From NCBI RefSeq assembly GCF_003149045.1, contig NZ_QGDU01000001.1, positions 62,001-126,000 of the forward strand: a stretch of DNA of 64,000 bases, read 5' to 3'. This DNA is from Fibrobacter sp. UWR4 (lineage in GTDB: Bacteria > Fibrobacterota > Fibrobacteria > Fibrobacterales > Fibrobacteraceae). Position numbers and translations under genes: made by a program. Under the pieces are notes generated by a model. The model had not been told where the DNA came from, did not search any database, and was given only the letters and a program-made list of their open reading frames with translations. Below, one piece after another: positions 36,123 through 36,373 of the stretch; the stretch's first letter is position 1, and every line of letters begins with the position of its first letter.

Positions 36123-36142
36123 AACGCCTCTTTGGAAATGAA

Positions 36143-36196
36143 ATTCTCCCTGCCTCAAGGGCCGTAGCTCACCGGAATCGGTGCAAGCAGGAGAAT
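36143..36196 (-). promoter_or_regulatory. Structured purF leader, candidate Fibro-purF RNA motif
   Basis: On the minus strand, 21 bases ahead of the purF ATG, an outer helix ATTCTCCTGC / GCAGGGAGAAT (one bulged G) closes a region holding an inner hairpin CACCG-ATTC-CGGTG and a conserved-looking single-stranded stretch (AGCTACGGCCCTTGAG). I recall a Fibro-purF motif being reported from comparative genomics in Fibrobacter upstream of purF; the location and organism fit. A GU-containing hairpin followed by TTTATTTTTTT lies just upstream (36207-36236). I could not align it to the published covariance model. Confidence 0.7.
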
Positions 36197-36373
36197 CAAG
36201 CGGCAAAAAAATAAACACCCATTGAACGGGCGCAAAGGGCGAAAAATTGAAAAATTTTGGCGAAGTATGCTTGAAAATGGAGAAAATTTTACGTTTTGTG
36301 TAAAAGCGGCGGTTTTGGGAATATATGTATTACAATTTCTGAAAATGCGTTTTTGCGATAAAAATGCGCAACT

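Follow-up and report, generated by a model that had tools for sequence, protein, structure and literature searches.

A Fibro-purF three-way-junction RNA in the predicted 5′ leader of purF in Fibrobacter sp. UWR4

The purF leader in a 64,000-nt stretch of the Fibrobacter sp. UWR4 genome (contig NZ_QGDU01000001.1, positions 62,001–126,000; hereafter, the window) is an authentic and ordinary member of the Fibro-purF RNA family. A cmscan search of the whole window against Rfam 15 places RF02974 on the minus strand at 36200–36126 with an E-value of 3e-15 and a score of 68.7 bits (gathering score, 60 bits), and the match spans all 75 model positions (1–75). The family is already known, is found only in Fibrobacter and has had a ligand proposed for it in the literature; what is added here is promoter evidence on where the purF message starts relative to the RNA. 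The first-pass annotation of this DNA had named the family and proposed the covariance search as a check, to be read together with conservation at purF in other Fibrobacter genomes. The name proves right, with a score above threshold and the motif adjoining purF in every genome whose leader was retrieved, and the strings on which the name was based, ATTCTCCTGC (36196–36187), CACCG (36183–36179), CGGTG (36174–36170), ACGGCCC (36165–36159) and GCAGGGAGAAT (36153–36143), all lie at those positions of the minus strand (Table 1).

The fold of the RNA is a three-way junction. In an alignment of 56 distinct leaders (A2), 98.9% of the cells in the three-stem Rfam structure are paired, and changes on both sides are seen in 11 of the 15 pairs, with all three stems represented and a total of 104 such cells versus 30 in shuffles. 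The covariation score is likewise well above that of shuffles (0.434 versus 0.241; 0/500), pairing falls to 51–56% when partners are slid by one column, and the window's own sequence forms all 15 model pairs. Since single-sequence folding energy is by itself unremarkable (z −0.61), the case for the RNA rests on homology and covariation; the energy value is also the one point in favor of a chance hairpin devoid of function, a reading already refuted by the match to a curated family and by the excess of two-sided compensatory changes. The two-level hairpin originally drawn for this leader must therefore be replaced, because it overlooked a third stem (P3) that covaries. The seven conserved pairs of its outer helix (36196–36190/36149–36143) hold, but the additional UGC/GCA pairs do not: the first of them is broken in 16 of the 56 sequences, and the letters involved co-vary instead within the third hairpin (AU in 39 sequences, GC in 16). 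Similarly, the ACGGCCC stretch singled out as conserved is present, but resolves structurally into the linker UACG and the 5′ arm of that hairpin, GCC-CUUGA-GGC. A short extension of P2 (GCU/RGC), absent from the Rfam structure line, is plausible from RNAalifold modeling and pair counts; two of its pairs are invariant in 56/56 leaders and the third alternates among U-G, U-A and C-G, so that this largely invariant helix is left unproven by covariation. The 56 distinct sequences provide an improved consensus for the family, in which P2 of the three-way junction is probably bulged. Between the variable stems, the unpaired letters of the junction (GCUUG / RGCUAYG / A) are conserved, which gives it the look of an aptamer. 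Inspection of the alignment extends this pattern to a diverged leader scoring below threshold (G082; 52.6 bits), where altered stem sequences still pair and the junction letters are kept.

Table 1. Features of the purF locus in the window (positions in the 64,000-nt stretch).
Feature	Position	Strand	Basis
Candidate sigma-70-type −10 element, TATTTT	36208..36213	-	Sequence and matching −10 position in relatives; predicted +1 at ~36200–36201
Fibro-purF RNA (RF02974)	36126..36200	-	cmscan, 68.7 bits, full-length
P1 5′ strand, AUUCUCC	36190..36196	-	Pairs with 36149–36143; 6/7 pairs changed both-sided in relatives
Putative P2 extension 5′ strand, GCU	36186..36188	-	Pairs with AGC 36169–36167; RNAalifold and pair counts
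UG bulge inside P2, nearly invariant	36184..36185	-	Alignment A2
P2 5′ strand, CACCG	36179..36183	-	2/5 pairs change both-sided, other 3 never vary
P2 3′ strand, CGGUG	36170..36174	-	Covariation
Putative P2 extension 3′ strand, AGC	36167..36169	-	RNAalifold and pair counts
Junction linker, UACG	36163..36166	-	Alignment A2
P3 5′ strand, GCC	36160..36162	-	AU:39/GC:16 co-change at outer pair
P3 3′ strand, GGC	36152..36154	-	Covariation
P1 3′ strand, GGAGAAU	36143..36149	-	Covariation
AGAGGC with Shine-Dalgarno core GAGG (36130–36127)	36126..36131	-	Invariant in 56 aligned leaders
purF, amidophosphoribosyltransferase, 461 aa	34737..36122	-	TIGR01134, 512.8 bits (cut-off 350)

The distribution of the motif bears out the restriction to Fibrobacter that had been claimed for it. 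RF02974 is found above threshold once in the UWR4 genome, the remainder of which yields only sub-threshold noise of a sort that 13 of the 14 control genomes also produce; none of the 14 controls has a hit above the cut-off. Among 168 Fibrobacterota genomes, 61 score above the cut-off, with a single copy, at purF, in those checked; 60 of these belong to the genus of the window, and the remaining one (G150) carries the code of a different genus in the family but the name Fibrobacter sp. UBA1765. A scan for an exact degenerate core pattern in 84,980 prokaryote species, with one genome per species, returned 39 matches, of which 38 are in Fibrobacter. The other, in Comamonas aquatica, lies inside a coding gene, has no Rfam match and can be put down to chance. 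This settles that the leader truly belongs to a rare RNA class confined to one genus. The nearest named relatives of the window are Fibrobacter metagenome-assembled genomes from horse faeces.

The promoters upstream of the RNA point to a message that begins with it. A canonical sigma-54 element (GGCAY-N5-TTGC) precedes the motif in 30 of 60 leaders, and in one further genome (G064) by inspection; in all the counted leaders its last C falls at −90 or −89 relative to the ATG. In sigma-54 promoters the GC dinucleotide is located at −13/−12, and this geometry would place the start of transcription near −78, where the Rfam model begins. Another 28 leaders have no sigma-54 match and display instead a −10 element resembling TATATT or TATTTT, which in 27 of the 28 ends between −84 and −87, implying a start at −77 to −80. 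From the spacing of both promoter types, transcription is hence predicted to start within 1–2 nt of the first base of the motif, and the motif and the last nucleotides before the ATG probably make up the complete 5′ leader, of about 78 nt, of the purF mRNA. In the window's own clade the sigma-54 element is absent upstream of purF, and the candidate −10 element is weak by the E. coli consensus, a strict scan for which found no promoter at the window's purF. RpoN is encoded in the UWR4 genome, and in the four genomes searched for sigma-54 patterns (G000, G063, G072 and G124) these are enriched genome-wide, some three- to sixfold over a reversed control (33 versus 6 in G000 and 23 versus 4 in G063). 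In the searched genomes, such patterns also precede the nitrogen genes for GltB and PII, the chaperone genes for HtpG, ClpB, GroES and GrpE, and a gene for a sigma-70-family factor (for example L156, L164, L167, L169, L175, L178 and L184); it would be unusual for heat-shock genes to be under sigma-54 control.

P1 ends 20 nt upstream of the purF ATG (36122–36120), so that the location first assigned to the motif holds while the gap of 21 bases given for it is one too many. The gene downstream of purF lies on the opposite strand and the upstream gene, encoding a UbiA-like prenyltransferase, ends about 250 nt before purF on the same strand; purF looks monocistronic from this strand arrangement and spacing. 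A terminator-like hairpin with a T-run (GCGCCCGTTCAATGGGTGT; 36233–36215, minus strand) overlaps the candidate −10 region of purF and is probably the terminator of the prenyltransferase gene. In the window, no stop interrupts the purF frame upstream across the RNA, giving a 493-aa ORF from a GTG (36218–34737, minus strand). A coding role for the motif was nonetheless rejected, given that the purF frame contains stops there in many relatives, which makes the extension accidental; a program that set the start at GTG 36218 would be in error. Elsewhere in the window, a bacterial small SRP RNA (RF00169; 13259–13355, minus strand) scores barely above its threshold (41.7 versus 40 bits).

Within the genus, the RNA has a history of loss and replacement. 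In a PurF tree, the genomes that lack it (G068; G111, G116, G126 and G134; G113; G124) fall among RNA-bearing Fibrobacter, and this distribution, which requires a total of five changes, the outgroup step counted, on a tree with many weakly supported forks, reads best as one origin followed by about four losses. The G111 group (L037, L039, L041 and L042) has kept the sigma-54 promoter with a different purF leader; its GCCUCU, which overlaps a strong competing hairpin (UCUGCGC..GCGCAGA), is the complement of the AGAGGC ribosome-binding site. The purF leader of G124 is predicted to span only about 23 nt. In G113 (L147/L038), purF lies directly downstream of gltD, encoding the glutamate synthase small subunit, with no Fibro-purF RNA, an adjacency that may represent another link of purF with nitrogen assimilation.

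The explanation that we favor, with moderate confidence, is that Fibro-purF is a translational riboswitch, in which an RNA making up the whole leader responds to a small-molecule ligand. In the proposed mechanism, the three-way junction would occupy the 5′ terminus of the message and form its entire leader, the conserved junction segments would bind the small molecule, for which phosphoribosylamine (PRA) is the published candidate, and binding would stabilize P1, the 3′ end of which precedes the GAGG ribosome-binding site by 12 nt. Stabilized P1 would in turn lower 30S access, resulting in product feedback on purF. The position of the motif favors regulation of translation initiation or of mRNA stability at the 5′ end. 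The 20 nt that separate P1 from the ATG contain no hairpin with a T-run, the sole terminator-like site lying upstream of the motif. A transcription-terminating riboswitch, which would need an intrinsic terminator between aptamer and start codon, was hence discarded, and the lack of room for one makes translational control probable. The absence of the RNA from several Fibrobacter lineages counts against the riboswitch explanation, as do the weak consensus of the promoter in the window's own species and the instability of PRA. If, as predicted, the RNA begins at +1 and works at the level of translation, the appropriate test construct is the exact 78-nt leader fused in frame.

How the ribosome-binding site would be reached is less clear-cut. 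It is unpaired in the junction fold, and GCUU (36188–36185) is complementary to AGGC (36129–36126) in 56/56 leaders, both elements being nearly invariant. Shuffled sites pair equally well, however, with 0.52 of controls showing complementarity between leader and ribosome-binding site at least as good, so that a classical sequestering switch is not evident; clear-cut sequestration was set aside on these grounds and retained as a possible mode. The 5′ strand of P1 was also considered as an anti-Shine-Dalgarno element (CGCUUC/GAGGCG) and rejected, as the pairing is present in 32 of 56 leaders and absent in the window. In view of the shuffles, crowding of the ribosome-binding site by a ligand-stabilized P1 may be preferred, with a pseudoknot as an option. 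A wider reading, which we regard as doubtful, would place Fibrobacter purF under two inputs stacked at a single nucleotide. The promoters would differ in type among species, sigma-54 (nitrogen) in some and sigma-70 in others, with +1 held at the RNA's first base; within this 5′-terminal RNA, the junction segment GCUU would be shared between the P2 extension (ON) and AGGC in the ribosome-binding site (OFF, pseudoknot); and some lineages would have substituted a different leader with complementarity to the ribosome-binding site.

The ligand of the favored riboswitch already has a proposal. PRA is a very unstable compound, and the work of Malkowski and colleagues, whose motif, to judge from the title, is probably Fibro-purF, reportedly encompassed about 30 unique sequences, with PRA binding said not to be directly testable owing to this instability. 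A review (PMC9971707) lists PRA, which PurF produces, among the compounds that a riboswitch class senses, and cites Malkowski et al. (2020; RNA 26:1838), where a rare RNA motif of purF is implicated. This corrects the description of the ligand as undefined in the first-pass annotation and makes PRA the published candidate for Fibro-purF. Should PRA be the ligand, this would be a riboswitch for an unusually short-lived metabolite, exerting control at the very step that makes it.

A riboswitch for some other ligand of the pathway, such as PRPP, glutamine, AMP/GMP or ppGpp, would find a rationale in PurF itself, which has PRPP and glutamine as substrates and nucleotides as inhibitors, and in the sigma-54 promoters of many species, which suggest a link of purF to nitrogen supply. 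Searches of eight homologues up to an E-value of 3 returned no other meaningful Rfam family at the motif, however, and the published work, as the review presents it, favors PRA, making this alternative unlikely. The short conserved junction beside the ribosome-binding site, with one target gene per genome, would also suit an autoregulatory site for PurF or another RNA-binding protein that blocks ribosome loading when bound; we consider this quite improbable, as the literature, in the same review, leans towards a small-molecule ligand and no candidate binding protein emerged here. A passive role as a 5′ stabilizer or translation enhancer of the mRNA, with no ligand, agrees with the location of the RNA at the predicted 5′ end of the message and with its dispensability, as evidenced by at least four losses within the genus, but a mere stem-loop would not need junction letters to be strongly conserved while stems vary, and we see very little likelihood in it.

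Like Fibro-purF, the PRPP and ppGpp riboswitches (subclasses of ykkC), the ZTP riboswitches and the purine riboswitches are found in leaders of purine-metabolism genes, but none of them has an Rfam match here. Glutamine riboswitches (glnA RNA and Downstream-peptide) are small three-way junctions too, and glutamine is a substrate of PurF, yet these families are also unmatched up to an E-value of 3 in the eight homologues. With RF02974, on the other hand, the leader shares the gene, purF, the same three stems and the confinement to Fibrobacter. Within this family, the window's clade (G000, G088-G094, G096 and G099; horse-faeces Fibrobacter where named) differs in three respects: it scores 60–73 bits versus 85–101 in most other carriers, its P1 is of another sequence (AUUCUCC in the window), and its 5′ flank reads CUUG, rather than GUCC.
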